DNA from: Opitutus sp. GAS368
GTDB lineage: Bacteria; Verrucomicrobiota; Verrucomicrobiia; Opitutales; Opitutaceae
Length of the DNA stretch: 32,658 bases
Assembly: GCA_945869845.1 (NCBI GenBank)
Contig: CAMBRG010000027.1
Location: 1 to 32,658 of the forward strand
Reading direction: 5' to 3'
The position numbers and the translations under genes were made by a program. The notes below the pieces were generated by a model that saw only the letters and a program-made list of their open reading frames with translations, had not been told where the DNA came from and did not search any database. Shown here piece after piece: positions 4,588-32,658 of the stretch (positions within the stretch are counted from its first letter, which is position 1; the number at the start of each line of letters is the position of its first letter).

Positions 4588-4591
4588 GGCA

Positions 4592-5606: not shown

Positions 5607-5666
5607 GTGGCTACTATGGGCAAGAGAAGTCGAATCTCAACACTATAAACGCCACAGACGCTATAT
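5607..5666 (-). promoter_or_regulatory. Candidate promoter and operator for the HTH-PIN-hsdR transcript
   Basis: On the minus strand, TTGAGA (plus positions 5635-5640) and CATAGT (5613-5618) are separated by 16 bp, like a sigma-70 promoter ending just before the HTH gene. Upstream of it is the imperfect inverted repeat TATAGCG-7 nt-CGTTTATA (5644-5665), a plausible binding site for the HTH protein. The stretch is more A/T-rich than its surroundings. This is pattern-based only. Confidence 0.35.
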
Positions 5667-14723: not shown

Positions 14724-15266
14724 ATGCCGCCTTCAGATCCAGAATCATCCCGTTGGTTTGCCGAGGAAGTGCTGCCGCACGAACCGAAGCTACGGGCGTG
14801 GCTGCGCGGGCGGTTTCCCGGCGTGACCGACACGGACGACCTCGTGCAAGAGGCCTACGCGCGGCTGATGCAGGCTCATGCGACGGGGCCGATCGCGTGC
14901 CCGCGGGCGTTTCTTTTTGTGACGGCGCGCAATCTCGCCCTCAACCACCTGCGCCATCGGCGGATCGAACGGCCGGAGGGCGCGGCGGAGATCGATGTGC
15001 TGTCCGTGGCCGACGAACGGGTTGGGGCTCCGGAGGCGCTCGCGCACGCGGAGGAGTTTCAGATCCTGGTCCGGGCGATCGAGTCGCTGCCGGAGCGCTG
15101 CCGCCAAGTCATCACTTTGCGAAAAATCTACGGGCTGTCCCAAAAAGAAGCGGCCGAGCGGCTCGGCCTCTCGGAGCATACGGTTGAGGCGCAGGGGAGC
15201 ATCGGTTTGCAGAAGTGCATCGAATATTTTCGTCGTCACGGCCACGGGCCGCGCTCCCGCCCATGA
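14724..15266 (+). CDS. ECF-type RNA polymerase sigma factor (FecI-like)
   Basis: This 180-aa protein has the two domains of an extracytoplasmic-function sigma factor. Region 2 is at about 12-80 (DTDDLVQEAYARLM at 36-49, then FLFVTARNLALNHLRHRR). Region 4 is at about 113-170 (SLPERCRQVITLRKIYGLSQ, then KEAAERLGLSEHTVEAQ), a helix-turn-helix for the -35 element. The TAR-like NLALNHLRHR pattern and the FecR partner place it with FecI-type sigma factors that activate a TonB receptor gene in response to its ligand. Its stop overlaps the fecR start as ATGA (15263-15266), so the two are translationally coupled. The likely target is the TonB receptor gene at 16458, and perhaps its own operon. Confidence 0.92.
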   Translation: MPPSDPESSRWFAEEVLPHEPKLRAWLRGRFPGVTDTDDLVQEAYARLMQAHATGPIACPRAFLFVTARNLALNHLRHRRIERPEGAAEIDVLSVADERVGAPEALAHAEEFQILVRAIESLPERCRQVITLRKIYGLSQKEAAERLGLSEHTVEAQGSIGLQKCIEYFRRHGHGPRSRP

Positions 15267-16342
15267 AGCCCGAACCGACACAACCGCGTTCGCGGGAGGA
15301 AATCGAGCGGACCGCCGCAGAATGGGTGCTGCGGCGGGACCGTGGGCTCACGGCGACGGAGCAGGACGAACTCTCCCAATGGCTCGCGGCCGATGCGCGT
15401 CACGGCGCGGCGCTGGCGTTGCACCGTTGGGGTTGGGACGAACTCGACCGGCTCGCTGGTCTGCAAACTTCGCTCGGGGCCGTGCCCGACCCGGACCTGT
15501 TCGCGCCCCGGACGAAGGTGCGGGTACGGCGCTGGTGGTGGCTCGCGGCCACGGCTTCGCTGGCGGCGGCCGCAGGGGGCGCGCTGCTGATCACCACGCG
15601 CTCGCCGCCCGTCGCACCGGAGCAGGCAACGCCAATGGTTGCGGTATCGACGGTGCTCGCGGCCCCTTGCGAACGCCTGACCTTGGAGGACGGATCGGTG
15701 GTCGACTTGAATCGTGGGTCGAGCGCCGAGGTGGACTATTCGGCGACCGAGCGGCGCGTGCGGTTGGTCCGCGGCGAGGCGAGTTTCACCGTCGCGAGGA
15801 ATTCCGCGCGGCCGTTCGTGGTGAGCGCGGGCGGCGTCGATGTGCGCGCGGTGGGCACCGTCTTTAATGTGCGTTTTGCCCGTGAGGCGATCGAGGTGGT
15901 CGTCTCGGAAGGCCGGGTGAAATTGGAAAACTGGAGCGGCGACGCCCTCGTCGCCGGGGCCGCAAACGCGACGGGGGCGACGCGTCCCCAGCCGGCATCG
16001 GATATCCTGCTCTCGGTCGGCGAGAGTGCGTTGGTCTCTTTGGGGCCGTCGTCGCCGACGCAGTTCGCCACGCTTTCAGCGGACGAGATCGCGGCGCGGT
16101 TGGCGTGGCAGCCGCGCCTGCTGGATTTTACGGATGCGGCGCTCGCAGAAATCGTGGCGGAGTTCAACCGGCGCAACCCGGTGCAGCTTGTGGTGGGCGA
16201 TCCCGAGTTAGGTGCGGTGCGACTCAGCGCGACGTTTCGATCGGACAACGTCGAGGGCTTCGTGCGCTTGATGGAATCGGATTTCGGCATGCGCGCGGAG
16301 TGGCGGAGCGAGCGCGAGGTCGTGCTGCGACGGGCGAAGTGA
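15263..16342 (+). CDS. FecR-family anti-sigma/sigma regulator, membrane-anchored
   Basis: FecR proteins span the inner membrane and pass the signal from a ligand-loaded TonB receptor to the cognate ECF sigma factor. The 359-aa product has an N-terminal cytoplasmic domain of the DUF4880 type (about 14-56, EWVLRRDRGLT, ELSQWLAADARHGAALAL), one membrane segment (about 91-111, WWWLAATASLAAAAGGALLI), and a periplasmic FecR domain (about 130-230, LEDGSVVDLNRGS, GEASFTVARN, GTVFNVRF). Near the C-terminus a short STN-like region (LAEIVAEFNRRNPVQLV) is typical and may contact the receptor. The start at 15263 overlaps the sigma stop; an in-frame ATG at 15215 would lie inside the sigma gene. It is followed 115 bp later by the receptor it presumably serves. 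Confidence 0.92.
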   Translation: MKPEPTQPRSREEIERTAAEWVLRRDRGLTATEQDELSQWLAADARHGAALALHRWGWDELDRLAGLQTSLGAVPDPDLFAPRTKVRVRRWWWLAATASLAAAAGGALLITTRSPPVAPEQATPMVAVSTVLAAPCERLTLEDGSVVDLNRGSSAEVDYSATERRVRLVRGEASFTVARNSARPFVVSAGGVDVRAVGTVFNVRFAREAIEVVVSEGRVKLENWSGDALVAGAANATGATRPQPASDILLSVGESALVSLGPSSPTQFATLSADEIAARLAWQPRLLDFTDAALAEIVAEFNRRNPVQLVVGDPELGAVRLSATFRSDNVEGFVRLMESDFGMRAEWRSEREVVLRRAK

Positions 16343-16457
16343 ACGCGGCGTTGTGACGTTTCGGTGACGGCGTGCCAGACGGAGGATTTTTCTTAGCGGA
16401 AAGCGGCGGCTCGCGGTTTGTTGGTTCGAATCCGAACCACTCCGTTTCGCTATCACC

Positions 16458-19388
16458 ATGCACTTCCTCGCTCCCGTTTTGATCACTCGCCTCGCGCGAT
16501 TTGCGCTTCCGCTGCTCCTCGCGGCGTTTTCCATGCCCACGCTTAGCGCGGCCGAAGAGGCCAGAAAATCCTTCAGCGTGCCCGCCGGTGCCGCCGCGCA
16601 AACGCTCAAGCAGTTCGCCCAACAGGCCGCGCGCGAAATCGTATTTTCCCCGGAGGTCGTCGGTGATGTTAAGACAAACGCAGTGCAGGGCGAGCTAACG
16701 CCACGGGCCGCGCTTGACGCGATGCTGGCGGAAACCGGCCTGGTCGGTGCGCAGGAGCAAAAAACGGGTGCCTTCGCCGTGCGGAAAGCAGAACTCCCAA
16801 ACGCGCCGCGGGCGGAGCTGACAGGCGCCCGCCCGGAAAAATCTAGCAAAGCGGACCGAGGCCCGGTGGTTGAGCTCGTTCCGTTTGTTGTCTCGGGTGT
16901 CAGAGGGAGCCTGGCGAAGGCGATCGAGACGAAACGAGAGAGTGTCACGGTGGTCGATGCAGTCAGTGCCGAAGACATTTCAGTCTACCCGGACACGAAC
17001 ATCGCGGAATCGCTCCAGCGCATCAGCGGCGTGACCATCAATCGCACCAATGGCGAAGGGGAGCTTGTAAGCATCAGGGGGCTTTCGCCGCAATTCACTC
17101 TCGTGACGGCGCAGGGGCTGAGCGTCTCGTCGACCGCGATCAATGATGACGGCAATGTCCAGAACGGCCGCGCCATCAGTTTCGACATTTTCCCCTCGCA
17201 GCTGTTTGCGGGCGCCACGGTCGCCAAGACTCAGTCCGCAGAAACGATGGACGGTGGGCTTGCCGGGATGGTGGACTTGAAGCTGCCGCAGCCGTTTGCC
17301 TACAAGCACAACACCGCCGCCGTCTCCGTGTCGGAATCCTACTCGGATCTGACCAAAAAATGGGACCCGTCCGGCACGTTTTTTTGGTCGGCGAAATTAA
17401 ACAACACGGTTGGTGTGCTCGTGCAGGGGGTCTATACGCGGGACCTGCTCTACGCGGGAATCTCGGAAGGAACTCGTTGGAACACCTTCAATTTTCCGGC
17501 CCTGAACGCAACGAACGTGGAAATCGCCCGGCTCCCGCGGGTCGGCGAGGAGATCTACGAGAGGACGCGTCGCGCAGTGTCGACGACACTGCAATATCGG
17601 CCGTCGGACAAACTGGCGGTCAGCGTGTTCGGAATCGTGGGCGAATCCGCGAAGGATCGCTCGCGCGTGACGTTGCAGGGCAATCTGTTTGGTCCCGTGA
17701 ATCCGTCCGCCTTGGTCTTGGAAGGCAAACAGGCCGTCGCCGCGACTTTTGGCGCTGGAACCCAGGTGCGTTCGGGCGGGGACTTCAATTCGGTCGATAC
17801 CAATACGATTCTGGTCGGGCTGACCGCAGACGCGCTGGTGGGCAGCGATACGGCGGTCGCATTCAAGGCGTCGGCTTCCTCGGGCAAATTTGACCGTACG
17901 GTGGCCGCGATGGTCGGCCAAGCCACCGTGAACAACTTCACCTATGATTTTCGCGGCCATTCCGAGTATCCCACCATGACGTCATCAGCCATGGACTTTT
18001 CCAATCCGGCGGCGTTTTCGGTGATTCAGAATCAAAAAACCCGCGACCTACAGGAGGACGACGCCAAGCTGGTCAATCTGGCGGTCGATCACGGTTTGAG
18101 AGGAGATTTTCTAAAGAGCATCAAGGCGGGCTTGGAGTTCCGCACTCAGGAACGCACCCGTGACACGACTCGCGCCAACCTGCCGATTCCCGCCGGATTG
18201 GTCGCCCTGACCTCAGTCGCCGGTTTGCCCCGCTACGGCTACCTGCCCGACGCGCCATCGGGCGTGAACAAGACCTTTGCGGCTTTTGATCGTGGGCTTA
18301 CCTACAAAAACTTGATCGATCCGTATGCCGCCGTTCCGCTGCCGGTTCTGCCGAGCCTGACGTTTGGGATCAAAGAGGAGATTGTTGCGGGATTTCTTCA
18401 GGCGGATTTCAGCACCGAGTTGGCCCAGCGCCGGATTTCGGGCAATGTGGGCGTCCGTTACGCCCGCACCGAGCAAAATGCCTCGGGGTTTTCCGCGCAG
18501 GGAGCGCTCTCGACGCCGGTCAAGTTTAGCCGCGCCTACGACAATGTTCTCCCCAGCCTCAATCTGCGCAGCGAATTGAACGACGAAATGGTTCTGCGGT
18601 TCGCGGCTTCGCGCGGTATCACCCGACCGTCGCTCTCGGACCTCGCGCCCTCCGAAACGGTGAGTGCAGTCAATCCCACGGTCACCAAGGGTAATCCGAA
18701 CCTCGACCCGTATCTCGCCACTCAAATGGACCTCTCGTGGGAATGGTATTTTAAGAAAGACGCCCTCATCTCACTCGCGGTGTTCAACAAACAAATCGAC
18801 TCGCTGATCGTCACGAAGGCCGTGGTCGAACGTTACGTGCCTTACGATACGAACCGACCGGCCGGTGATTTTATCATCACGACCCCGGTGAACGGCGACA
18901 AAGCGACGGTCACCGGACTTGAGGCCAACTACCAGCAACCGTTCAGTTTTCTACCCAGTCCTTTCGATGGGTTCGGACTGCTCACGAACGTGACGGTCGC
19001 CACCAGCGAATCCACGTCGACCGTGGTGACGAACGCGACCACCGGCGTGACCCGCCAAGTCTCGACGCGGGTGCAGGGCCAATCGCCGGTTTCCTACAAC
19101 GCGATTCTCTACTACGACAAAGGACCGTTCCAGGTACGCATGGCCTATCATTGGCGCGACGATTACCTGATTCTCCTCCTCGGGGAAACGGAGGAACGCA
19201 TGAAACGCGCGACGGGAAATCTCGACCTGTCGATCAACTGGCGGGCCACCAACAAGCTCACGCTTTTCATGGAAGCACTCAACCTGACGAGCGAGGACAG
19301 CTATCTCTATGATCGCACCGAGTCGCGAAACATCGCCTTCGCCGACTACGGACGCACGATCAACTTTGGCGGGCGTTTCAAGTTCTGA
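16458..19388 (+). CDS. TonB-dependent outer-membrane receptor with STN signalling domain
   Basis: The 976-aa protein starts with a signal peptide (about 1-32, cleaved near LSAAEEA). An STN signalling domain follows (about 37-110, KSFSVPAGAAAQTLKQFAQQ through TPRAALDAMLAETGL), which talks to FecR in the periplasm. The plug is at about 140-280 (SVYPDTNIAESLQRISGVTI, VSIRGLS) and a 22-strand barrel ends with the aromatic terminus NFGGRFKF. The plug resembles large TonB receptors of the Caulobacter/Xanthomonas type, often used for sugars, oligosaccharides or phosphorylated compounds rather than only siderophores. Gene order sigma-FecR-receptor supports ligand-induced expression. The gene immediately downstream is an exported glycerophosphodiesterase, so a glycerophosphodiester or phospholipid-derived ligand is a reasonable guess. 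Substrate cannot be read from the sequence. Confidence 0.93.
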   Translation: MHFLAPVLITRLARFALPLLLAAFSMPTLSAAEEARKSFSVPAGAAAQTLKQFAQQAAREIVFSPEVVGDVKTNAVQGELTPRAALDAMLAETGLVGAQEQKTGAFAVRKAELPNAPRAELTGARPEKSSKADRGPVVELVPFVVSGVRGSLAKAIETKRESVTVVDAVSAEDISVYPDTNIAESLQRISGVTINRTNGEGELVSIRGLSPQFTLVTAQGLSVSSTAINDDGNVQNGRAISFDIFPSQLFAGATVAKTQSAETMDGGLAGMVDLKLPQPFAYKHNTAAVSVSESYSDLTKKWDPSGTFFWSAKLNNTVGVLVQGVYTRDLLYAGISEGTRWNTFNFPALNATNVEIARLPRVGEEIYERTRRAVSTTLQYRPSDKLAVSVFGIVGESAKDRSRVTLQGNLFGPVNPSALVLEGKQAVAATFGAGTQVRSGGDFNSVDTNTILVGLTADALVGSDTAVAFKASASSGKFDRTVAAMVGQATVNNFTYDFRGHSEYPTMTSSAMDFSNPAAFSVIQNQKTRDLQEDDAKLVNLAVDHGLRGDFLKSIKAGLEFRTQERTRDTTRANLPIPAGLVALTSVAGLPRYGYLPDAPSGVNKTFAAFDRGLTYKNLIDPYAAVPLPVLPSLTFGIKEEIVAGFLQADFSTELAQRRISGNVGVRYARTEQNASGFSAQGALSTPVKFSRAYDNVLPSLNLRSELNDEMVLRFAASRGITRPSLSDLAPSETVSAVNPTVTKGNPNLDPYLATQMDLSWEWYFKKDALISLAVFNKQIDSLIVTKAVVERYVPYDTNRPAGDFIITTPVNGDKATVTGLEANYQQPFSFLPSPFDGFGLLTNVTVATSESTSTVVTNATTGVTRQVSTRVQGQSPVSYNAILYYDKGPFQVRMAYHWRDDYLILLLGETEERMKRATGNLDLSINWRATNKLTLFMEALNLTSEDSYLYDRTESRNIAFADYGRTINFGGRFKF

Positions 19389-19490
19389 TCGCGTGCTGAC
19401 GGCCATGACCGCTTGGTTCGCCGGCGGCGTGGACGGCCGGGTCGGAAGCGGTTTTGACCCGGCACTGAAGGAACGAATCGAATTCTCCAA

Positions 19491-20426
19491 ATGATCTCAT
19501 CGCTGCGTTTTCGATTCTGGCCCGGATTCGTGGCCGCCTTCGGCCTCGCCCTTTGCGTTGCGACTGGAGCCGGGCCGCTGCGAGCTGCACCGACCCGGGC
19601 GGAAACCTTGCGGGCGACGTTGCTGCAAGGATCGCACTCGGAAATTTTCCTGGTCGCCCATCGGGGCGATTGGAGGAATTTTCCGGAGAATTCCCTCGCT
19701 GCGATTGAGGGCAGTATCGCGGGAGGCATGGAAATGGCCGAGATCGACCTGCAGCGCACGAAGGACGGCCATTTGATTCTCATGCACGACCCGTCCGTTG
19801 ACCGAACCACGACCGGGAAGGGCAACGTCTCCGACCTCACGCTAGAAGATATCCGGGGTCTTCGCCTGCGCGACGGGCTGGGGAGTCCCACGTCGTTTGC
19901 GGTTCCGACGCTGCGCGAGGCTCTCGTCGTGGCCCGTGGTCGAATCCTCCTGAATCTCGACAAGGGGTATCGGTATTGCGGTGAGGTGATGCCGCTGCTG
20001 GAGAAAACCAACACGCTAGGCCTCGTGCTGTTGAAAGGTCCTCTTTCGGTGGAGGAGGTGATGGCCGAGCAGGGGGATTTGCTGTCACGCGTGGCCTACA
20101 TGCCGGTGATTAATTTTGGGAAACCCGGCGCTGCGGACCGGTTGCAAGGGTGGCTGGAAAAAGCGAAGCCCTGCGCGGTCGAATTCGTGTTTACCGATTG
20201 GAGCACCGAATTGGCGGAAGCATTCGCCGAATGTCGCCGGCGGGGAGTGCGAATCTGGGTGAACGTGCTGTGGCCGCACCTGGCCGGCGGCCTGTCGGAT
20301 GATCTGGCCCTTAACAAACCTGACGAAGTGTATGGAGTGCTGCTCGATCGTGGGGTCAGTATCCTCCAAACGGATCGCCCGCGTGAGTTGCAGGCTTACC
20401 TCCGTCAGCGAGCGAGTCGCCTGTAG
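19491..20426 (+). CDS. Exported glycerophosphodiester phosphodiesterase
   Basis: GDPD enzymes hydrolyse glycerophosphodiesters to glycerol-3-phosphate and an alcohol, using two catalytic histidines and a metal in a TIM barrel. In this 311-aa protein the motif AHRGDWRNFPENSLAA (about 56-71) supplies the first His and the metal-binding Glu/Asn. EMAEIDLQRTKDGHLILMHD (81-100) supplies the acidic ligands and the second His (H99). DRTTTGKG and a C-terminal RGVSILQTDRP also fit the family. A signal peptide (about 1-32) indicates export. It lies 102 bp after the TonB receptor on the same strand and probably processes its ligand or feeds it phosphate and glycerol. Length is normal for the family. Confidence 0.93.
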   Translation: MISSLRFRFWPGFVAAFGLALCVATGAGPLRAAPTRAETLRATLLQGSHSEIFLVAHRGDWRNFPENSLAAIEGSIAGGMEMAEIDLQRTKDGHLILMHDPSVDRTTTGKGNVSDLTLEDIRGLRLRDGLGSPTSFAVPTLREALVVARGRILLNLDKGYRYCGEVMPLLEKTNTLGLVLLKGPLSVEEVMAEQGDLLSRVAYMPVINFGKPGAADRLQGWLEKAKPCAVEFVFTDWSTELAEAFAECRRRGVRIWVNVLWPHLAGGLSDDLALNKPDEVYGVLLDRGVSILQTDRPRELQAYLRQRASRL

Positions 20427-22376: not shown

Positions 22377-23618
22377 TTATTGGGTCTTGGGAGCGACGGC
22401 AGGTTTGATGGTCGAGCCGGCGGGATAGAAACGCTTCGGTTGGTCGGCGGGGGCGATTTCGACGCCGGCGATCATGAGCAGGTTGGCGAGGGCTTGTTCG
22501 GTGGCGGGGCTGTAGCCGGCGTACATGCCGACGAATTTGCCCGCGGAATTGATCACGAGGGTCGTGGGCAACGGCGACATGACGCCTTGGGTGAGTTGCA
22601 CCATGACCGTCTTGGCCGAGGCCGCTCTGTCGCCGCTGGCGGGTTTGCCAATGGGATCGAAGACGGTGGGGAAGGTGTATTTCTCGCGGTTGGCCGTGAC
22701 CCACTTGTCGTAGGCCTCGCGGGTGTCGAACGAGCACACGCCGAGGACAATCACGTTTTTATCGGCGTAGCGGCGGGAAATTTCTTGGTAGTGCGGCATG
22801 GCTTGCAGGCAGGGCCCGCACCAGGTGGCCCAGAAATCGAGGATGACCGTCTTACCTTTGGCGAAGTCGGAGAACTTGCCGGGTTTACCGTCGGCAGTGA
22901 TGACGTCGAAATCGGGGATGGCGTCGCCGGCCTTGAGTTTACCGTAGCTCTCGCGGAAGGGGGGCGGTGGGTTTTTGGCTTTCTCGGCAGCGGCGGCGGC
23001 CGAGGCTTTGGCCTTGGCGTCGGCGGCGGCCACGATGGCGGCATCGACCTTGATGCCGGCGGTGGCGAGGGCGGCCTCGGTGCGCGGATCGGTGGCGCCG
23101 CCGTTGCCGACGATCACGCCGGCGATCTTGCCGTCGCGGCCGATGACAAACTGGGTGGGGATGCCGGTGACGCCGTAGAGCTTGCTGGACGCGCGCTCGG
23201 CGAAGGTGGCGGAGTCGCGCTCATTGGGGTCCCACGCGAAGATGAGGTCGGGGTATTTCGGCTGGTTGACGGGAATCCACTCGCGGAATTTGGCGATGGT
23301 ATCGCTGGTGCCGGAGGCGAGGACGACGACGCCCTGGTCCTTGTATTTGGCGGCGAGGGTTTGGGTATGGGGGAAGGAGGCGATGCACGGTCCGCACCAC
23401 GTGGCCCAGAAATCGAGGACAACGACCTTGTCTTTGTAGTCGCTGAGGCGGACGTCGGCACCCGCGAGGTTTTTCATGACGAAGTCGGGGGCGATTGCCC
23501 CGACGCGCAGGGTCGCCGGCGCGGCGACCGGGGTCGCGGCGTGGGCGGTGGTGAGGACCGCGGCGGCGAAGAGGGCGGTCGCCGGAGCGAAGAGAGAGCG
23601 GAGAAAAACGGTTTTCAT
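22377..23618 (-). CDS. Exported protein with two TlpA-like thioredoxin domains
   Basis: The 413-aa product has a signal peptide (about 1-28, ending TAHAA) and two redoxin/TlpA domains. Domain 1 (about 40-190) carries DFWATWCGPC (C75/C78). Domain 2 (about 228-380) carries the same DFWATWCGPC (C267/C270). They are joined by an Ala/Lys-rich linker (about 195-220). Each has the cis-Pro-containing segment expected of thioredoxin folds (TGIPTQFVIG in domain 1, SPLPTTLVIN in domain 2). Domain 1 is very close to domain 2 of the larger neighbour at 23724-26186, and the signal peptides also match, so the two genes arose by duplication. The probable role is reduction of disulfides in the periplasm, with electrons perhaps delivered by a DsbD-type protein. 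Specific targets are unknown. Confidence 0.88.
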   Translation of the reverse strand: MKTVFLRSLFAPATALFAAAVLTTAHAATPVAAPATLRVGAIAPDFVMKNLAGADVRLSDYKDKVVVLDFWATWCGPCIASFPHTQTLAAKYKDQGVVVLASGTSDTIAKFREWIPVNQPKYPDLIFAWDPNERDSATFAERASSKLYGVTGIPTQFVIGRDGKIAGVIVGNGGATDPRTEAALATAGIKVDAAIVAAADAKAKASAAAAAEKAKNPPPPFRESYGKLKAGDAIPDFDVITADGKPGKFSDFAKGKTVILDFWATWCGPCLQAMPHYQEISRRYADKNVIVLGVCSFDTREAYDKWVTANREKYTFPTVFDPIGKPASGDRAASAKTVMVQLTQGVMSPLPTTLVINSAGKFVGMYAGYSPATEQALANLLMIAGVEIAPADQPKRFYPAGSTIKPAVAPKTQ

Positions 23619-23723
23619 GGGGAGTTGATTTTAAAAAAAAGTAACCCGCGCGAGCGGGCGCGGGCGACTTGGGAAGGTGGAGGAGTTTAGGGGACGCGGC
23701 AGACGCGGTTGGCGCGGAGCCAA

Positions 23724-26186
23724 TCAGCGCATCGCGTCGCGGTTGGCTTGATCGAGTTTGGCTTTGGCCAGGATCTCGGGAGCGACCTTGATGCCGGCTC
23801 GGGCGAGGGCGGCTTCGAGGAGGACTTCGCCCTTGAGGTAGCCGGTGCAGAGGGCGGCGATCTTGCCGTCGCGCCCGATGATGAATTGCTGCGGAATGCC
23901 GCCGACGCCGTAAAGTTTATGCGAGGCGCGATCGGCGCCGCGTTCCTGCGGGTCGTGGGAGAACAATATCTCGGGGTAGGTGGCTTGGTTTTTCTTTACC
24001 CAGGCTTCGAAGGCGGCGCGGGGGTCACTCGTGCACGAAGCGAGGACGACGACTCCTTGGTCTTTATAGCGGGCGGCGACTTCGTTGGTGTGCGGCATCG
24101 AGGCGATGCAAGGTCCGCACCAGGTGGCCCAGAAATCCAAGATGACGACTTTCCCGCGGAAGTCGGAGAGTTTCACGGCTTTGCCGTTGAGATCGGTCGC
24201 GGGGAAATCGGGCGCGGCCGCACCGACCTTGAGCATTTCTACTTTCGCTTCTGGAACCGGCGGTTTGGTCTCCGCGGCGGTCCAGATTTTTTTCGGCATA
24301 TCGTCGGTCGCGAGTTTGACGCCGGCGCGCAGGAGGAGATTGCCGATGCCTTCAGCGACATGGGCACCGCCACCGACGACGATGCCGACCATATCGCCTT
24401 GGGCGTCGATGACGTAGGCGTGGGGGACGGGCGCCATGGCTCCGCCGGTGAAGACCAGCGGGGCGACTTTCTTCATGTGCTCACGTTGGAGGGTTCCGAA
24501 TGCCTTCTTTTCCTCCGGAGTCATCCCGTTGAAATCTTTCGCGGGTTGTGGGCCGCGGCCGGCGGGATCGAAGTAAACGGGAAAACTGATTTTGCCGGCA
24601 TTCTTCTCCCGCCACTGTTCAAAGTTCTCGCGCGTGCTGTAGGCGGAGAGCGCAACGACCACGACGCCTTGGCCGGCATACTTGCGCGACAGATTATCGT
24701 AGAACGCCAAGCCGTCGGCCTGCAGGCCGCCGCCGGAGCTGATGGAGAAGATGGCGGTCTTGCCCTTGATGATCTCGGACAGATTCACCGACTGGCCGTC
24801 CACGTTTTGCAGCGTGACGTTCGGCACGGGCTGGCCGGCAACCAGCTTGGCGTAATTTTCCATGAAGGGTGCCTGCGGAGGCGCGGATGCCGCCGCCTTG
24901 GCCGCTGCGGCTTCATCCGCCGCGGACTTTATGAGCGCAGCTTTGCCGGCGGTGGCGGTGGCTTCGTCGACCTTTACGCCGGCGAGGGCGAGGGCGCCCT
25001 CGGTGCGGGTGTCGGTGTCGCCGCCGTTGCCGACGATGCTGGCGACGATCTTGCCTTCGCGACCGATGACGAACTGCGTGGGAATCCCGGTTACGCCGTA
25101 AAACCTCGAAGAGGCGCGCGCCTCAAACGTTGCTGAACCGCGCTCGTTCGGATCGAAGACGAAGACCATATCGGCATACTTCGGCTGGTTGACCGGGATC
25201 CATTTTTTGAACGCCGCGATCGTGTCGCTCGTGCCCGAGGCGAGCACGACTACGTCCTGATTTTTATATTTCGCCGCCAGCTTCTGCGTGTGCGGGAAGG
25301 AGGCGATGCACGGTCCGCACCACGTGGCCCAGAAGTCGAGGATGACGACCTTGCCCGTAAAATCCGCCAGTCGGACCTCCTTATCGTTCAGGTCGCGCAT
25401 CACAAAGTCCGGCGCAACGGCGCCCGCCGCCAGCAAGGTTGCTCTGGGGGCGACCGCAGCCCCGCCCGCCGCCGCGCTTGGCGATGGCTGGATGGCCGCC
25501 GCCGCGCTTGCGCCGCCACCGCTACCCATGCTGCCGGCCCGAAATCCTCCGCCCGCGGCGATGAGAGCGTCCCCGTGCGCCTCCGTGATCTCGATGCCGG
25601 CCCGTAGGAGCGACGAGTAAGTCATCGCCACGACCTTCTCTCCCACCCCGATGAAACCGCTCCAGAGTTTGCCGTCGGGCTTGATCACGGCCGTTGCGGG
25701 CTGCATGCCCACCCCCAACACGGTGTTGGTGACGTTTTCCGCCGAGGCCTTGCCGGCCGGGTCCCACGCGGCGGTGAAGCCGGGGTTGGGGTTGGCTGCG
25801 ACCCACTGGTCGAAGGTGTCCTTCTCGGTCCCGGAGAACACGACGAGGGCGACGAGCCCCTGATTCTTGTAGGCGGCGGCGATCTGGCCGACCCAGGCCT
25901 GCGGTCCTTCGCTGGTGCAGAACTGGACGAGCAGGGGTTTGCCGCGGAACGAGGAGAGCTTGACCGGCTTGCCGTCGGTGCCGGTGACGGTGAAGTCCGG
26001 CATCAGGGCATTGCGTGCGACCTTGCCGAACTTGTCGGGGGTGAAGCCGCTGCCGCCGCCCGGCGCGGGCGAGCCCATGCCAACCATGGCGGTTTTGGAC
26101 TCCGCGGCCATGGCGGGGGAGAGGAGAGCGAAGGCGAAGAGGGCGGTCGCCGGGGCGCGGAGCGAGCGGATGAGCGGGTTTTGCAT
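23724..26186 (-). CDS. Exported protein with four thioredoxin-like domains, two lacking the CxxC
   Basis: This 820-aa protein has a signal peptide (about 1-28) and four redoxin folds in tandem. Domain 1 (about 55-205) has only QFCTSEGP in place of WCxxC. Domain 2 (about 250-405) has ATWCGPC (C290/C293). Domain 3 (about 445-625) has SISSGGGLQA and no cysteine at the site. Domain 4 (about 650 to the end) has ATWCGPC (C690/C693). Catalytic and non-catalytic domains therefore alternate, as in protein disulfide isomerases where inactive domains bind substrate. A Gly/Ala-rich linker lies at about 205-245 and an Ala-rich helix at about 405-440. ATG 26186 was chosen because it starts the signal peptide. 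It lies 73 bp after the TonB receptor gene and 105 bp before its two-domain paralogue, same strand, so probably one operon. Confidence 0.88.
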   Translation of the reverse strand: MQNPLIRSLRAPATALFAFALLSPAMAAESKTAMVGMGSPAPGGGSGFTPDKFGKVARNALMPDFTVTGTDGKPVKLSSFRGKPLLVQFCTSEGPQAWVGQIAAAYKNQGLVALVVFSGTEKDTFDQWVAANPNPGFTAAWDPAGKASAENVTNTVLGVGMQPATAVIKPDGKLWSGFIGVGEKVVAMTYSSLLRAGIEITEAHGDALIAAGGGFRAGSMGSGGGASAAAAIQPSPSAAAGGAAVAPRATLLAAGAVAPDFVMRDLNDKEVRLADFTGKVVILDFWATWCGPCIASFPHTQKLAAKYKNQDVVVLASGTSDTIAAFKKWIPVNQPKYADMVFVFDPNERGSATFEARASSRFYGVTGIPTQFVIGREGKIVASIVGNGGDTDTRTEGALALAGVKVDEATATAGKAALIKSAADEAAAAKAAASAPPQAPFMENYAKLVAGQPVPNVTLQNVDGQSVNLSEIIKGKTAIFSISSGGGLQADGLAFYDNLSRKYAGQGVVVVALSAYSTRENFEQWREKNAGKISFPVYFDPAGRGPQPAKDFNGMTPEEKKAFGTLQREHMKKVAPLVFTGGAMAPVPHAYVIDAQGDMVGIVVGGGAHVAEGIGNLLLRAGVKLATDDMPKKIWTAAETKPPVPEAKVEMLKVGAAAPDFPATDLNGKAVKLSDFRGKVVILDFWATWCGPCIASMPHTNEVAARYKDQGVVVLASCTSDPRAAFEAWVKKNQATYPEILFSHDPQERGADRASHKLYGVGGIPQQFIIGRDGKIAALCTGYLKGEVLLEAALARAGIKVAPEILAKAKLDQANRDAMR

Positions 26187-26259
26187 GGAGGAAAAAGGGC
26201 GAGGCCTGCCCAAAATGGGCAGGCCTCGTAGCGATTGGACGGACTACGGTAAGAACGGC

Positions 26260-29235
26260 TTATTTGATCGGGATACTGAAGGACAGTTCGTAAGTGCGGC
26301 CCAAGATAAGTTCCCGATGGAGCCCGGCGTTGAAGCCCCAGAGCGTGGCGGAATAGGGCGGCTTCTTGTCCAAGATATTGCTGACGCCGACGCTCACACG
26401 AACGCCCTTGCCGTAGCTGCGCCACAGGCCGTTCTTGAAATCGTAGCCGCCGCGCAGGTCGATCTTGGAGACGGCCGGCGTGGGGAAGTAGGTAACGGCA
26501 GCGCTATTCGCGACGTTGATGCTGCCGGCATTGTTGGAGTTAAATCCGTCGAGGTGCCAAAGAAACGCGGACCCGTTCCACGAGCCTTTGCGCCAAAAGA
26601 CCGACGCGTTGTATTTCCATTTGGGCGGCGACGAGGTATCGCCATCGAGGACAACCTCGGCCTGGCCGGGCGCAACCTTGCGGGTGAAACTCAGGTTGCG
26701 ACTGGCGGAAAAATTCATGCGCCAACGGCCGAACTGCTCCCAAGGCGCGACGTATTCGAGGACGTAGTCCATGCTGCGGCTGCTGATCCGCCCAAAGTTC
26801 ACGAAGACGCGGTTCACCCCGGTAATCTGGCCGGGTTGATTGAGAGCGACATCGGACGGGGTGGTCGCGGCCCGCACCACGCGGTCGGGGAAAAGCGCTT
26901 CGTTGTTAATGATGGTTTGAGCGGTGATAAGCTGGAAGACGTCCTTTTGGATCGTATCGTAGAAGTTGACCTGAAGCGTGAGGCCTTTGGCGAACGTGGG
27001 CTCGTAGATCAGACCCGCGAATGAAGTTTCGGATAGCTCCGGGCTAGCCACACGGTTGGAGCCCCGATTCTCGACGATGCCCGGGGTAGTCGCGGGCGTG
27101 CGGCGCGGATCGGTCAGGGTCGACGTCACGGTCGTCGGTGGGATCAGGTATTCGGTGACACCGGGAGCGCGGAAGCCTTCGCTCCAGCTCGCACGGATCA
27201 ACACGGGCTGCACGGGGCTCCACGAGAAGCCGACCTTGGGCACGGCTTTGGAAAACTCCCGGATGGTCTCCCGGCGACCAGCGACTTGGAAGTCGAGTCG
27301 GCGGAGCATCGGCAGGGAATTGCGTTTACCAAAAGCAGGCAGGAACGCCTCGGCGAAAACCGCGTTGCTGGTCTGGGCTCCCAGCAAGGTGGTGATCGTG
27401 GTGACGGGGACTACGACCGCCGAGAAATTGGTCGAGGTTGTCGTGACGTTCGACCGATTGGTCGAGCCGCCGGCAGCAAGTTTGGCGGTGCCGCCCGGAA
27501 GGTCGAAGACGTCGCCGTCAGCCGTAAAATCGAGGCCCGTGTTCTTCGAGGCCGAATCGATCTTTGGATAAAGCGAGAGGGTTTCAAGTTTGGCGGCCTG
27601 CGACGGCGCGCCGGGGGCGCCGGCGTCGATGAACGGATTGAAGCGCGCATTGACATCGGGATTGGTCAAGAGACCGGCAAGGCCTGCGCCGTTGAAGATG
27701 CGGTTGGTCTGAAGCGCGGTCTGGCGTTGCCAGGATGCGCCCAAGTCCCAGCGCCAAGTCGCGGCCCACTTGCCTTCGACGCCGATGGTGGCGGCTTGGT
27801 CGCGGGTGAGCATGGTCTGCGAAGTCGAACCCCACTCCGGGAGGACCATGGCGACCGTGACGTTTTGATTGAAAGGATTAAACGCGGCCGGCAGGGCCAC
27901 GGCCGTGCCGAAGCCGCCGGTGATCGAAGTGGTTGGTTGCGAGTTGAACTTACTGGCGGAGCGGGACGTGCGATAGTTAGCGTAGAGCGAAACGAGGTCG
28001 TTGAAACGGTAGTTGAGGTTGCCGCTGGCGCCGGAGCGTTCGGACTCGGGAACGAGATCGAGGAAGGACGCAGTGTTCATCCGGCGCTGGGCCGACGCGT
28101 TTACGACGGTAGCCGGCGAAAAGACCGTTTGGGAGGGAATGAATTGGCTGATCGAGGGCGTTGCGGTGGCGCCGGTGGGTACCAACACGACCCGCACCCC
28201 GGGAATGGCGTTGAAGTTACCGACCACGGTGCCGCCGGCGGCTTGGATCACAGCCGGGTAACCCCAGTTAAATCGGTAATCGATGCCGAAGCGCGGGGCT
28301 CCGGTGGCGTTCAGCGTGCCGGAGACGCGGTTGGACTGGTTTTGCTCTTTGGAGTAAGAGCGATCGGAAGCTTTGAGATTTTGGCGGTCGAAATAGTTGA
28401 GGGTGACCGTGCCGCTGAGCTTTCCGTAGGAGAATCCGGAAACGATGGAGGCGCTGCGTTCGCGTCCGCCGCCGTGCTCGGTCGCTTTGTAGCCCGACGA
28501 TAGCTCCGTGCCGGAGTAGTTTTTCTTCAGGATGATATTGATCACGCCGCCGACGGCATCGGCGCCGTAGATCGCGGAAGCGCCATCGGTGATGACTTCG
28601 ATGCGCTCGATCATGCCGATGGGAATCGTGTTGAGATCGACGAAGCCTTGGCGGGTATCGGTTGAGCGGTTGCCGTTGCCGGATTGGGCGGTGCGACGAC
28701 CGTCGACGAGGACGAGGGTCGAGCCTGAACCAAGACCGCGGAGATTGGCGCCGGACACGCCAGTTTGGGCGGGCGGAGCGTCGGCGGCACCCACCACAAA
28801 GTTAAACGCCGGGCTGGAGGTTTCGGTGCGTTGGGCGAAATCTGGGTTAAACTCGTCGGGCGAACTACCCCGGCCCGAGGCGATACCGGCGTAGCTCTGG
28901 GGGATTTGATTGAGGAAGTCCGACAGGGTCATCGCGCCGGAGGAGCGGAGGTATTCCTGATCGAACGAGCTGACGGGCGATGGACCTTCGAGGTCGGTGC
29001 GGCGAATGCGGGAGCCGAGGACTTCGACGGCATCGAGGCGCAGGGCGGCGTTGAGCTTGGCGGCTTCCACTGGGTCGGCCGGTTTTGGCGCCGCCGCAGG
29101 GGCCGCGGTCGTAGTCGGCGCCGGCTCCGCTTTTTTGGCCGGGGCGGCCGCCGGAGTCGTTTGGGCGATGATGCCGGCGGGGGAGAACACGAGGCCGGTG
29201 GTGAGCAGCCCGAGGAGGAGTCGGTTAGGTTTCAT
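26260..29235 (-). CDS. TonB-dependent outer-membrane receptor
   Basis: The 991-aa product has a signal peptide (about 1-24), then a Pro/Ala-rich low-complexity stretch (about 26-55) in place of an STN domain. The plug follows (about 68-240): LDAVEVLGSRIRRTDLEGPS, SGANLRGLGSGSTLVLVDGR and YGADAVGGVINIILKK, all standard plug motifs. The remainder is a beta-barrel ending TYELSFSIPIK, where most receptors end in an aromatic residue. It lacks the signalling domain, so it is not directly tied to an ECF sigma factor. ATG 29235 was chosen at the signal peptide over an in-frame start nine codons upstream. The downstream genes encode exported thioredoxin-like proteins and a cysteine synthase, pointing to uptake of a disulfide-, thiol- or metal-containing compound, which is inference. 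Confidence 0.92.
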   Translation of the reverse strand: MKPNRLLLGLLTTGLVFSPAGIIAQTTPAAAPAKKAEPAPTTTAAPAAAPKPADPVEAAKLNAALRLDAVEVLGSRIRRTDLEGPSPVSSFDQEYLRSSGAMTLSDFLNQIPQSYAGIASGRGSSPDEFNPDFAQRTETSSPAFNFVVGAADAPPAQTGVSGANLRGLGSGSTLVLVDGRRTAQSGNGNRSTDTRQGFVDLNTIPIGMIERIEVITDGASAIYGADAVGGVINIILKKNYSGTELSSGYKATEHGGGRERSASIVSGFSYGKLSGTVTLNYFDRQNLKASDRSYSKEQNQSNRVSGTLNATGAPRFGIDYRFNWGYPAVIQAAGGTVVGNFNAIPGVRVVLVPTGATATPSISQFIPSQTVFSPATVVNASAQRRMNTASFLDLVPESERSGASGNLNYRFNDLVSLYANYRTSRSASKFNSQPTTSITGGFGTAVALPAAFNPFNQNVTVAMVLPEWGSTSQTMLTRDQAATIGVEGKWAATWRWDLGASWQRQTALQTNRIFNGAGLAGLLTNPDVNARFNPFIDAGAPGAPSQAAKLETLSLYPKIDSASKNTGLDFTADGDVFDLPGGTAKLAAGGSTNRSNVTTTSTNFSAVVVPVTTITTLLGAQTSNAVFAEAFLPAFGKRNSLPMLRRLDFQVAGRRETIREFSKAVPKVGFSWSPVQPVLIRASWSEGFRAPGVTEYLIPPTTVTSTLTDPRRTPATTPGIVENRGSNRVASPELSETSFAGLIYEPTFAKGLTLQVNFYDTIQKDVFQLITAQTIINNEALFPDRVVRAATTPSDVALNQPGQITGVNRVFVNFGRISSRSMDYVLEYVAPWEQFGRWRMNFSASRNLSFTRKVAPGQAEVVLDGDTSSPPKWKYNASVFWRKGSWNGSAFLWHLDGFNSNNAGSINVANSAAVTYFPTPAVSKIDLRGGYDFKNGLWRSYGKGVRVSVGVSNILDKKPPYSATLWGFNAGLHRELILGRTYELSFSIPIK

Positions 29236-29639
29236 GGGTGTAGTTCGATCAAAGGAAAACAACGGGATCGGTGAGACAACGTCAGGCCCGAAGTTTTGGG
29301 AAGGATAAGTTTAGAGCCGATGTCGTGCCCAGACCATAGGGCAAAAGTAACAAAACTCCGGCGGGCACGGGCGCAGGCGCGAAGCGGCGGCGACTTTTGC
29401 CGCCAGAGGATTTATGCGCGGGTTGACGGAGCTGATCCGCAAATCGTGGCAAGCAGCTGACGGGGTGCCGCCCCGCCCGCCTCCGTGGCCACGGCGTTAC
29501 GTTACATCTGTGTGAACTCCTCACGAGTGCTCGCCCTCGGCTCGCCGAAACGCCAAGGGTCAATGTCGGAAACAGGCGTCCGCCTGCCGCTGCGCTTTGC
29601 AGCGTCCGTCAGCCCGGGATTCCAGCGGCTCCCTTCACC
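29236..29639. promoter_or_regulatory. Divergent intergenic region between the TonB receptor and the His-rich membrane protein
   Basis: This 404-bp stretch holds no credible gene. It must carry a leftward promoter for the receptor operon and a rightward one for the membrane protein. Two hairpins stand out: GGCGGC-7 nt-GCCGCC (29386-29404) and CGCTGC-5 nt-GCAGCG (29588-29604), the latter 36 nt before the ATG at 29640. I could not match either to a known riboswitch by eye. Confidence 0.35.
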
Positions 29640-30308
29640 ATGCTCCAACAATTGAACACCTATCTTGAGGCCTTAAAGATTCAGCGGTGGGATGACCACC
29701 GCTACTACCACCACAGCCGCATCAACCAGTCGCTCCACTTTATTAGCGCCTGCTTCTTCATCGCTTCCTACGCGATTCTCTTCACCGATCCCGCGTTGGC
29801 CGGCTTGCTCGCTTGGGGCATTTCGATGACCACCCGGCAGTCCGGGCACTTCTTCTTCGAGCCCCGCGACTACGACCACGTCAATCACGCCACTCACGAT
29901 CACAAGGAAGACATCAAGATCGGCTACAACCTCCGCCGCAAAGTCGTCCTCATGTCCATCTGGGCGGTCTCGCCCCTCGTGTTGTTCCTCAGCCCGTCGC
30001 TCTTCGGCCTGATCGAGCCCGCCGTCGGCCTGAACGGCTACCTCCACGATGTCGGCCTCGCATGGCTCTACATCGGCATCGGCGGACTGCTGTTCCGCAC
30101 GATCCATCTCTTCTTCATCAAGGACGTGATGACCGGTCTCGTCTGGATGTTCAAAATCGCAACCGACCCGTTCCACGATTTCATGCTCTATCGCAAATCA
30201 CCGCTGGCCCTGCTCAAGGGCGAGCTGATCGACCCGATGGATCACGTCAACGCCCAGGGCGACGAGATCACTTCCGAACAAGAGACCGAGGCCAAAACGC
30301 TTCCTTGA
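29640..30308 (+). CDS. Histidine-rich multi-pass membrane protein of unknown function
   Basis: This 222-aa protein is not one I can name. It has three or four hydrophobic segments (about 33-60, 103-125, 138-160) and many histidines facing the loops: DDHRYYHHSR (18-27), SGHFFFEPRDYDHVNHATHD (68-87), HK (88-89), H136, H156, H179 and H202. Clusters such as HxxxxxxxxxH and HxxHxHD are reminiscent of non-haem iron membrane enzymes (fatty-acid hydroxylases, Mpo1/DUF962-type oxygenases), in particular the GHxxFE pattern. That would suit a lipid-modifying role beside an aminotransferase and phosphatidylserine decarboxylase. The C-terminus is acidic. Its last 41 bp overlap the convergent aminotransferase gene end. 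Function is a hypothesis from motif resemblance. Confidence 0.8.
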   Translation: MLQQLNTYLEALKIQRWDDHRYYHHSRINQSLHFISACFFIASYAILFTDPALAGLLAWGISMTTRQSGHFFFEPRDYDHVNHATHDHKEDIKIGYNLRRKVVLMSIWAVSPLVLFLSPSLFGLIEPAVGLNGYLHDVGLAWLYIGIGGLLFRTIHLFFIKDVMTGLVWMFKIATDPFHDFMLYRKSPLALLKGELIDPMDHVNAQGDEITSEQETEAKTLP

Positions 30309-31929
30309 GCAGGCTGCGCCGGATGAGGCGGTTGGTCGCTCCGGGGTTCTCCCACCACCAACCGTCTGCCTGCATCGCTTGAGCCGCCCGAACAAACCTC
30401 GCGGCCACTTCCTCGAAATCGGCCTCGGTGTAATTCAGGCTAAAAATCAGCCGCCCCGTGCCGATCCAGCTCAACGCCAGACCCTCCGCCCGCAGATAAA
30501 ACTGGAACATCCAGTGGTAGCGGGAGGGCATCGTATAAAAGACGGTCCACACCGTGGAGAGATTGGCCACCTGCACGGGCACTTGGGCCGACCACAGGCG
30601 TTCGTTGAGCCGCGCCGCCCGGCCGTTCCAGCGTTCGTCGATCCCGGCGTACAGCGCTTTGACTTCGTCCGTTTCCAGACGCTCCAGAAAAACCTGCATC
30701 GCCGCCATCACGTGCGGATGCGCGTTGAAGGTGCCGCGCGCGAAACAGATATCTGCCGGCCGCTCCTCTCTAAACCGCCGCATCAGATCCTTCCGCCCGC
30801 AGATCACGCCGACCGGGAAACCTCCGCCCAGCGTTTTCCCGTAGGTCACGAGATCCGCGCGGACGCCGAAATACTCCTGCGCGCCGCCCCGGGCCAACCG
30901 GAAGCCCAGAAAAACTTCGTCAAAAATCAGCACGATGCCGCGCGCCGTGCAGACTTCGCGCAGTTGTTTCAACCAAGCCGTGTAAGCCGCCCGGTCGAAG
31001 GCCGCCCGCCGGCTGCCGTCCACGAGCGACGAGTCTCCCGGTGCGGCGACGTTGGGGTGCAGCGCCTGGATGGGATTCACGAGCACGCAGGCGATGTCGT
31101 TCCGCGTGCGCAGCACCCGCAACGTCGCCTCGTCCATTTCCTTCAGCGTGTATATTTTTCCCGGCGGCTGGGGATTGCCCGGACCCGGCTGCACGTCGTC
31201 CCACCAACCGTGGTAAGCCCCGCAGAACCGCACGATCTGCTTCCGGCGCGTGTGGTAGCGCGCCAGCCGCACCGCCTGCATCACCGCCTCGGTGCCCGAC
31301 ATGTGGAACGACACTTCGTCCAGCCCGGAAATCTCGCAAAGCCGCTCTGCATTCCACGCCACGCACGGATGGAGACCGCCGAGCACCGGCCCGAGTTCCT
31401 TCACCCGCTCGCTGCCTTCGGCCATGCAGGATTTGTAGAAATCGTAGCCCATCAGGTTCACCCCATACGAACCCGTCAGATCGTAGAAACGCCGGCCGTC
31501 GAGATCGGTCACCATCACACCGTCGCTCGACGCCAAGAATCCGCCCAGCTTCAAGTGCTCGCGGAAATATCGGCTAAACGGAAACGGCACCCGGTAGGTT
31601 CGCGTAAACTGGAGGTCGGAAATCCGTTCACCGGCCGCGACGGATTGCGCGATGGATCGCGGATGCTGCTCGGCGAAATGCCGCGCCAACCGGCCGAACC
31701 TTTCCCGCCGTTGCGCCTCCACGTCCGCCGGCGCATCGTCCGCCGAGAAAAACCGGTCCTCATCATACGAGAATCCGGGCAGCAGCCCCGCCACGCGCTT
31801 GGCCATCCGCGAATGCCCCGCGAGCGACCGATGCTTCGCGAACGAAAGTTGGAGCCGGCGGCGGGCGAGGTGAAAAATCGACCCCGCCGCGACAAAACCC
31901 ACCGCATACTTCAGCAATAAAACGTCCAT
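30268..31929 (-). CDS. Membrane-anchored class III (GSAM-like) PLP aminotransferase
   Basis: The 553-aa product belongs to PLP fold-type I, class III aminotransferases, close in pattern to glutamate-1-semialdehyde aminomutases. SGTEAVMQAVRLAR (211-224), GAYHGWWDD (237-245), LIFDEVFLGFR (334-344) and the Schiff-base lysine in TYGKTLGGGFPVG (K365) are all present. Unlike soluble relatives it begins with a hydrophobic helix (about 3-19, VLLLKYAVGFVAAGSIF) followed by arginines and a roughly 100-residue helical extension before the catalytic domain, suggesting a membrane anchor. ATG 31929 was chosen at this helix; the frame stays open upstream to 32172 but there runs antisense to the phosphatidylserine decarboxylase gene. 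The start codon overlaps that of the divergent psd gene. The substrate is unknown; a lipid-linked amine is plausible from context. Confidence 0.88.
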   Translation of the reverse strand: MDVLLLKYAVGFVAAGSIFHLARRRLQLSFAKHRSLAGHSRMAKRVAGLLPGFSYDEDRFFSADDAPADVEAQRRERFGRLARHFAEQHPRSIAQSVAAGERISDLQFTRTYRVPFPFSRYFREHLKLGGFLASSDGVMVTDLDGRRFYDLTGSYGVNLMGYDFYKSCMAEGSERVKELGPVLGGLHPCVAWNAERLCEISGLDEVSFHMSGTEAVMQAVRLARYHTRRKQIVRFCGAYHGWWDDVQPGPGNPQPPGKIYTLKEMDEATLRVLRTRNDIACVLVNPIQALHPNVAAPGDSSLVDGSRRAAFDRAAYTAWLKQLREVCTARGIVLIFDEVFLGFRLARGGAQEYFGVRADLVTYGKTLGGGFPVGVICGRKDLMRRFREERPADICFARGTFNAHPHVMAAMQVFLERLETDEVKALYAGIDERWNGRAARLNERLWSAQVPVQVANLSTVWTVFYTMPSRYHWMFQFYLRAEGLALSWIGTGRLIFSLNYTEADFEEVAARFVRAAQAMQADGWWWENPGATNRLIRRSLLKEAFWPRSLVRK

Positions 31930-32658
31930 GGAAAAGAAACCCTTACCCACCGAATCCGCCGTTGCCAAACCGACAACGCACTCCCGATTGAAACAATTGC
32001 GCGACAAACTCCTCCTGCAAGAGGACCTGAACTTTCTCCTCACCAACCGCCTTCCCCGCGTGTTTCTCACGCGGATGATGGGCCGCTTTAGCCAAATCCG
32101 GCACCCCTTCGTCGCCCGCTGTTCCATCGCCACCTGGCGCCTGTTCACCGACTTGGATCTCACCGAGGCCAAACCGCAGCACTACGCGAGCCTGCACGAC
32201 TGCTTCACCCGCGAACTCCGCCCCGGCGCCCGTCCGGTCAACCCAGACCCCGCCGTCATGGTGAGCCCCTGCGACGGGATCATCGGGGCCTGCGGCGCCG
32301 TCGAAGGCACGCGGATTTTTCAGGCCAAAGGCTTTCCTTACCTGCTCGCCGACCTCTTCGGCAGCGAGGCCGCCGCCGAACCGTTTCGCGACGGCTGCTA
32401 CGTCACGTTGCGGCTGACCTCGACGATGTATCACCGCTTCCACGCGCCGGCCGACGCGCTCGTCGAGCACGTCACCTACATCAGCGGCGACACTTGGAAC
32501 GTAAACCCCATCGCCCTGAAGCGCGTCGAACGACTTTTTTGCCGCAACGAGCGCGCCGTCGTCCACCTGCGCCGCGACGACGGCCGCCCCTTTGCCCTCG
32601 TCGCCGTGGCCGCGATCCTCGTCGCGGCCATTCGCCTGCATTTCTTGAACGTGCTCCT
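31928..32658 (+). CDS. psd: Phosphatidylserine decarboxylase, partial (right edge)
   Basis: Psd converts phosphatidylserine to phosphatidylethanolamine at the inner membrane using a self-made pyruvoyl group. The 243 codons present show LNFLLTNRLPRVFLTRMMG (about 34-52), FTRELRPGARPV (93-104), SPCDG (113-117, with the catalytic Asp), LRLTSTMYHRFHAPAD (161-176, with the conserved histidines H169/H172) and IRLHFLN near the edge. The LGST-type self-cleavage motif lies beyond the window. The reading frame is open to the last base. ATG 31928 is the first in-frame start giving a family-like N-terminus after about 30 extra residues; it overlaps the minus-strand ATG of the aminotransferase gene. A later non-ATG start cannot be ruled out. 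Confidence 0.88.
   Translation, partial: MEKKPLPTESAVAKPTTHSRLKQLRDKLLLQEDLNFLLTNRLPRVFLTRMMGRFSQIRHPFVARCSIATWRLFTDLDLTEAKPQHYASLHDCFTRELRPGARPVNPDPAVMVSPCDGIIGACGAVEGTRIFQAKGFPYLLADLFGSEAAAEPFRDGCYVTLRLTSTMYHRFHAPADALVEHVTYISGDTWNVNPIALKRVERLFCRNERAVVHLRRDDGRPFALVAVAAILVAAIRLHFLNVL

Follow-up and report, generated by a model that had tools for sequence, protein, structure and literature searches.

Remodelling of membrane lipids under phosphate starvation by PlcP and Agt, with Pho boxes, is known from Phaeobacter, SAR11, and Pseudomonas aeruginosa (PMC4796936, PMC8528852). In P. aeruginosa, PlcP and Agt with Pho boxes are described as producing glycolipids under phosphorus stress (PMC8528852). 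The words aminotransferase and decarboxylase have no occurrence in the main texts of these two reports or of a third one (PMC9239053). Here, we analysed a 32,658-nucleotide stretch of DNA from Opitutus sp. GAS368 (assembly GCA_945869845.1, contig CAMBRG010000027.1), hereafter the window, which is the entire contig (C27 of the source genome). Its final 3 kb are occupied by a three-gene cassette (the trio) encoding an Mpo1-like membrane protein, a membrane-anchored class-III aminotransferase (AT), and psd2, a second phosphatidylserine decarboxylase (PSD). A sequence-only reading of the window had described a membrane protein, an aminotransferase, and psd at this place, and profiles and open reading frames agree with it. 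psd2, AT, and the Mpo1-like gene, often together with a GT4 glycosyltransferase (GT) gene, are co-inherited across phyla. Judged from sequence, the probability is roughly 0.5 that this patchily distributed, co-inherited cassette remodels membrane lipids under phosphate scarcity. Like the PlcP/Agt system, the cassette has Pho-box-like repeats in relatives, a lipid-type GT4 enzyme, and a PlcP-like metallophosphoesterase in the same genomes; unlike that system, it includes an aminotransferase anchored in the membrane, a dedicated PSD, and an Mpo1-like protein. It looks like a new branch of the lipid remodelling response to phosphate starvation, with amine chemistry added. Searches of open-access papers, judged by their listings, showed no description of such a module.

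Genome contigs were scanned for relatives of AT, and the best 80 of 242 were kept (64-86% identity). By record title, they come from Verrucomicrobia, Betaproteobacteria, Bradyrhizobium, and one Vicinamibacteria metagenome-assembled genome; the labels of several metagenome records (e.g., 'Akkermansia muciniphila') look unreliable. The trio had been expected to co-occur elsewhere, and it does: psd2 lies near AT in 78/80 loci and the Mpo1-like gene in 72/80, and in each case AT is on the strand opposite to that of its two partners. In six of the eight loci lacking the Mpo1-like gene, the sequence ends about 1.5 kb or less past AT. The other two are L071 (3.4 kb past AT) and L096 (3.9 kb, where psd2 is missing too), and in several Comamonadaceae loci it lies 0.7-5 kb away from AT instead of adjoining it. 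Among loci found through the Mpo1-like gene, AT is present in 26/30 within the 3.6 kb examined, and GT in 27/30. A Sphingomonas plasmid record carries all three genes, followed by a gene for a PmtA-like methyltransferase. On this 385-kb record of Sphingomonas parapaucimobilis (L120, 14039-31351), genes for serine palmitoyltransferase (SPT), acyl carrier protein, an NAD(P)H-binding protein, and lptFG are also seen about 10 kb from the cassette.

Association of the genes was also examined at the level of whole genomes. The Mpo1-like gene is present in 57/200 genomes of the family of a Limnohabitans genome. For AT, GT, and the PlcP-like gene, 40 of these 57 carriers and 40 of the 143 non-carriers were compared, taken in listing or number order. 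AT was found in 40/40 carriers (683 bits or more) versus 0/40 non-carriers (best 145 bits). When pairwise distances are compared between the four proteins (psd2, AT, Mpo1-like, and GT), r is 0.67-0.89 (permutation p 0.001, uncorrected for species kinship; the GT matrix covers 48 loci), and it is 0.86 for psd2 against AT. That the trio forms one unit is strongly supported by these sequence comparisons.

In the family of the window, the Mpo1-like gene was detected in 3/150 genomes, and a close AT in those same 3. Conservation across Opitutaceae, named earlier as a check, is therefore confined to very few genomes, and in those few the AT and Mpo1-like genes do go together. A scan of 387 Verrucomicrobiota genomes gave an Mpo1-like match in the window's own genome only, and the cassette is absent from six other sampled genomes of the genus. 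Both transfer and misbinning are possible because those six genomes lack the cassette; the cassette of the window may have arrived horizontally, or the contig may be misbinned.

GT was found in 56/66 loci having the Mpo1-like gene and enough flank, and it directly adjoins the Mpo1-like gene, in divergent orientation, in 50 loci. Its best NCBIfam relatives are the GlcNAc-phosphatidylglycerol synthase (139.5 bits, cut-off 480) and glucosyl-diacylglycerol synthase (100.8 bits, cut-off 400) models. Because both scores fall under the cut-offs, GT is counted as related to these lipid glycosyltransferase families but not as belonging to them. At 400 bits, GT was present in 40/40 carriers (424 bits or more) and in 0/40 non-carriers, which hold one paralogue of 330 bits and two matches near 150 bits. 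The PlcP-like metallophosphoesterase, a candidate PlcP of which one member scores far under the LpxH cut-offs, was present in 40/40 carriers versus 23/40 non-carriers (Fisher p 1.7e-6), and in 19/40 carriers its gene and the Mpo1-like gene are no more than 10 kb apart.

The PF06127 family is named for yeast Mpo1, a 2-hydroxy-palmitic acid dioxygenase that uses Fe(II) to oxygenate 2-hydroxy fatty acids. PF06127 is the sole Pfam family matched by the histidine-rich protein of the window at E<=1 (E 0.0014, 19.1 bits, under the 24-bit cut-off). It is matched at E<=1 by 40/40 aligned cassette members (best 1.4e-5), three relatives scoring 24.0-24.4 bits, counted as over the cut-off. Alignments A1 and A2 comprised 40 and 41 chosen rows, respectively, and not all homologues. 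The histidines H20, H24, H33, and H70, on whose conservation the sequence-only reading depended, are invariant in 73/73 homologues. A core of H24, H33, H70, and E74 is shared by 73/73 cassette proteins and 9/9 aligned DUF962 proteins, and H24, H33, G69, H70, and E74 are invariant in these 9/9 Mpo1-like/DUF962 proteins, which come from carrier and non-carrier genomes (nine of ten proteins, all well over the cut-off; L163 was left out). D18, H20, R21, D79, N82, K89, and E90 are invariant in the cassette and are not common to the nine aligned DUF962 proteins. The cassette protein resembles the Mpo1/DUF962 family in its core (H24, H33, G69-H70, E74) and membrane helices; it differs in the sub-threshold Pfam score of the window protein, the extra invariant residues, and a longer C-terminal half.

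A fatty-acid hydroxylase, the pattern previously read into these histidines, was rejected, given that the profile search at E<=1 returned PF06127 only; the His/Glu pattern is that of Mpo1/DUF962. By sequence, the protein is classified as Mpo1-like and not as a fatty-acid hydroxylase. Its AlphaFold2 (AF2) model is helical and confident, with a predicted local distance difference test score (pLDDT) of 89.5 and a predicted template modelling score (pTM) of 0.84. Foldseek with this model gave no close solved relative (best E 1.6), and VIA-align 2 gave a Z of 3.7 at most, which excludes nothing. Two genomes, G699 and G720, have two copies of the Mpo1-like gene each, about 11 kb apart on one contig in G699.

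AT matches Pfam Aminotran_3 (PF00202) with 119.9 bits (cut-off 30.5), and K365, in the position of the pyridoxal phosphate (PLP) lysine, is invariant in 41/41 aligned AT. The enzyme had been called GSAM-like. Its class-III assignment holds; identity with HemL/GSAM was rejected, since the scores on both curated models are far under the cut-offs (TIGR00713, the hemL equivalog, 172.1 bits, cut-off 527.3; NF000818, 183.6 bits, cut-off 398). Among the solved structures listed as matches, AT comes closest, by sequence as well as by fold, to the AMT domain of mycosubtilin synthase (6kfm). MycA-type aminotransferases act on beta-keto fatty acyl chains. AT shares the class-III PLP fold with the mycosubtilin synthase AMT domain (6kfm, 6kfu) and HemL/GSAM, its closest relatives in sequence and fold. 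In contrast to them, it has no polyketide synthase/nonribosomal peptide synthetase (PKS/NRPS) context, being a stand-alone protein and not a megasynthase module, and it has a membrane helix, with an extension that reaches about residue 125. The N-terminal helix, noted earlier as unusual for the class, is borne out by the AF2 model (helix 2-31, then an extra helical region at 39-125). A hydrophobic stretch followed by an Arg/Lys-rich motif was recognised by eye in 79/80 AT loci; the remaining one, L059, starts at a contig edge. Within this post-helix motif, R25, L28, S29, K32, H33, S35, L36, G38, and H39 are invariant in 41/41.

psd2 is an extra, cassette-specific PSD on sequence grounds. It matches PF02666 PS_Dcarbxylase with 148.6 bits (cut-off 22) and TIGR00163 with 134.6 bits (cut-off 111.75), and profiles and alignment both give it ordinary PSD features. 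The self-processing C-terminus lies outside the window because the contig ends at 32658; the Gly-Ser-Thr processing motif is present in the full-length Sphingomonas relative. An Asp and a His of the relative L036 align with those of PSD structure 6l06, which we take to be catalytic residues. At least two psd genes were found in 28/29 whole genomes with the cassette, the genome of the window having two and G170 only one. A tree was built from 30 psd2 and 15 of the 29 housekeeping psd (the other 14 were missed by the motif filter), with the psd1_L107 row and its very long branch included; in it, psd2 from across phyla falls on one side of a 99/91 branch from housekeeping psd. psd2 is similar to bacterial PSD (6l06, 7cnw) in its PSD domain, aligned Asp and His, and Gly-Ser-Thr motif in the Sphingomonas relative. 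It differs in being a paralogue that is separate from the housekeeping genes and linked to AT, and in that the start codons may overlap in 25/78 loci.

A Pho-box-like repeat was defined as CTGTCAT-N4-CTGTCAT with at most 3 mismatches of 14. Such repeats are present in 27/50 regions between the Mpo1-like gene and GT, versus 15/182 other intergenic regions and 12/1000 shuffles. After removal of near-duplicates, the count was 23/43, and CTGTCAT ranked first among 420 permuted repeats. The region between psd2 and AT has a Pho box in 9/70, not clearly over the control.

A lipid role of the trio is likely, given its conservation across phyla, the separation of psd2 from the 15 housekeeping psd in the tree, and the frequent presence of a lipid-type glycosyltransferase. 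A locus for modification of an aminolipid had been proposed; of that proposal, the three-gene unit is strongly supported and the lipid role likely, while 'modification of an aminolipid' itself stays at the level of inference. GT, the PlcP-like enzyme, and the Pho-box-like repeats of relatives go beyond that earlier view and point to phosphate-starvation remodelling. The product of the cassette is probably an amine-bearing polar lipid. In the scheme that we propose, PlcP would free diacylglycerol from phospholipid and GT would add a sugar to it. The Mpo1-like protein, acting as an Fe(II) oxygenase, would introduce a carbonyl (aldehyde or keto) into a membrane lipid, and this carbonyl would be converted to an amine by the membrane-anchored AT. 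For psd2, we propose decarboxylation of a lipid-linked amino acid of the serine type, in the form of phosphatidylserine or an analogue; psd2 may simply act on phosphatidylserine. The resulting amine-bearing polar lipid would replace phosphatidylethanolamine (PE). Both the substrates and the sequence of the reactions are guesswork. A narrower form is a PhoB-controlled, undescribed route to a phosphorus-free aminolipid, in which diacylglycerol from PlcP would be glycosylated, oxidised by the Mpo1-like protein, and aminated by AT, while the PSD-type enzyme would decarboxylate some lipid-linked amino acid that is not phosphatidylserine; we regard this form as doubtful and put it forward tentatively.

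Several observations weigh against remodelling under phosphate scarcity. The trio stands without an adjoining GT in the window and in L037, the best GT homologue of the window's genome (44%) is unlinked to the trio, and 10/66 informative loci have no GT in view. The PlcP-like gene, whose product is a putative PlcP, also occurs in over half of the sampled cassette-free genomes (23/40). Verrucomicrobial methanotrophs are reported to be without PlcP (PMC9239053). The PSD features of psd2 fit phosphatidylserine, a phosphorus lipid. The layout is not uniform: AT of L155 is on the strand opposite to the usual one, and the carrier G602 has AT about 17 kb from the Mpo1-like gene. Repeats are found in 25/35 regions not labelled Verrucomicrobia versus 2/15 labelled Verrucomicrobia (labels by record title), and the window has no Pho box (best match, 5 mismatches of 14). 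The Pho-box signal, from which phosphate control of relatives is read, is essentially proteobacterial, and such control in the window's own genome would be conjecture.

Pho-box-like repeats and a PlcP-like gene would also suit phosphorus salvage, in which psd2 makes PE from phosphatidylserine, PlcP cleaves it, and AT deaminates the head group or phosphoethanolamine for phosphate recovery; the ordinary PSD features kept by psd2 agree with such a role. We consider salvage improbable. The closest relatives of AT are HemL and the MycA AMT domain, the 60 PDB matches to AT that were listed, out of 154, include no class-III phospho-lyase, and a water-soluble head group would need no membrane anchor on the enzyme. 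Its extension, with the Mpo1-like enzyme shortening the released 2-hydroxy fatty acids and GT capping diacylglycerol, is held to be improbable as well. A different doubt concerns psd2 itself. The pathway might consist of the Mpo1-like protein, AT, and GT, with psd2, which starts divergently, no more than a conserved neighbour that supplies ordinary PE. The psd2 counts cover cassette loci and genomes only, and its PSD features are ordinary, both of which favour this view. This too appears a slim prospect, in view of the occurrence of psd2 in nearly all AT loci (78/80), the extra copy in 28/29 genomes, the 99/91 branch that separates it from the 15 housekeeping psd, and its tracking of AT distances (r 0.86).

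A sphingolipid-like or fatty-amine backbone deserves separate consideration. Here, an Mpo1-like oxygenase would turn a 2-hydroxyacyl chain into a fatty aldehyde and AT would make a long-chain amine from it; psd2 and a PmtA-like methyltransferase would further complete a phosphoethanolamine or phosphocholine head group. The chemistry of the Mpo1 family and the fold match of AT to MycA-type aminotransferases, with their fatty acyl substrates, are in line with such a backbone. A PmtA-like methyltransferase gene adjoins the Mpo1-like gene in Sphingomonas and two Bradyrhizobium loci (NF045882, 136 bits, cut-off 390), and the Sphingomonas SPT gene is about 10 kb from the cassette. On the other side, GT is left unexplained, and the cut-off of NF047599, the only SPT model applied (500 bits), was reached in 0/30 cassette genomes: three score 340-351 bits and 8/30 have no match above 30 bits. 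Classical sphingolipids are thus not required, and a sphingolipid pathway as the common denominator was rejected, all 30/30 cassette genomes scoring under the NF047599 cut-off. We rate the fatty-amine backbone as unlikely, and its head-group extension likewise.

If the cassette does remodel membrane lipids under phosphate scarcity, more than one quarter of the sampled Limnohabitans-family genomes (57/200), along with scattered members of other phyla, would carry such a pathway. Candidate enzymes would also become available for amino- and glycolipids of bacteria from soil and freshwater; one group of bacterial Mpo1-like proteins would gain a biochemical role, and PSD enzymes a second one.

The coordinates of the locus are listed in Table 1. 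Three related loci (L117, L118, and L037; 10.8-11.4 kb each) were compared with the window using blastn at E<=1e-5. They are 77-82% identical to it from the start of the Mpo1-like gene to the end of the window, and the rest of the window has no DNA similarity to them. The trio is therefore a discrete cassette, as the similarity to all three loci begins at the Mpo1-like start and ends at the window end. The CATG palindrome is in frame for both AT and psd2 in 25/78 related loci; where it gives both start codons, as it may in the window, each promoter would fall within the coding region of the other gene.

Table 1. Coordinates of the cassette and its features in the window.
Feature	Positions	Strand	Basis
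Mpo1-like (DUF962-type) polytopic membrane protein, 222 aa	29640-30308	+	Profile search, alignment, AF2 model
Class-III PLP aminotransferase (AT), 553 aa, with N-terminal membrane helix and conserved extension ahead of the catalytic fold	30268-31929	-	Pfam, AF2 model
5' portion of psd2 (second phosphatidylserine decarboxylase), cut by the contig end at 32658	31928-32658	+	PF02666, TIGR00163
Palindromic CATG, able to give the ATG of psd2 (+) and of AT (-)	31927-31930		Sequence
Overlap of 41 bases, tail to tail, between the ORFs of the Mpo1-like protein and AT	30268-30308		ORF coordinates
Cassette extent by DNA similarity to three related loci	29638-32658		blastn E<=1e-5

A defence system was rejected, as PADLOC gave no match at E<=0.001. 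LplT (named by profile) and UDP-glucose dehydrogenase, 5'-nucleotidase, and TonB/ExbBD (named by reading), which neighbour the cassette mainly in related Burkholderiales loci, were set aside as local synteny. Elsewhere in the window, type I restriction-modification-like genes (HsdR-, HsdS-, and HsdM-like, by reading only) lie at 1567-12161 with a methyltransferase-like gene between them. Two thioredoxin-like multi-domain proteins adjoin a TonB-dependent receptor at 22377-29262; the larger has four AhpC/TSA stretches, and the smaller was assigned by reading only. At 15215-20426, genes for a FecR-type anti-sigma protein, a TonB-dependent receptor, and a glycerophosphodiester phosphodiesterase stand in a row. 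This row is possibly a phosphodiester-scavenging unit, which would fit phosphate stress.

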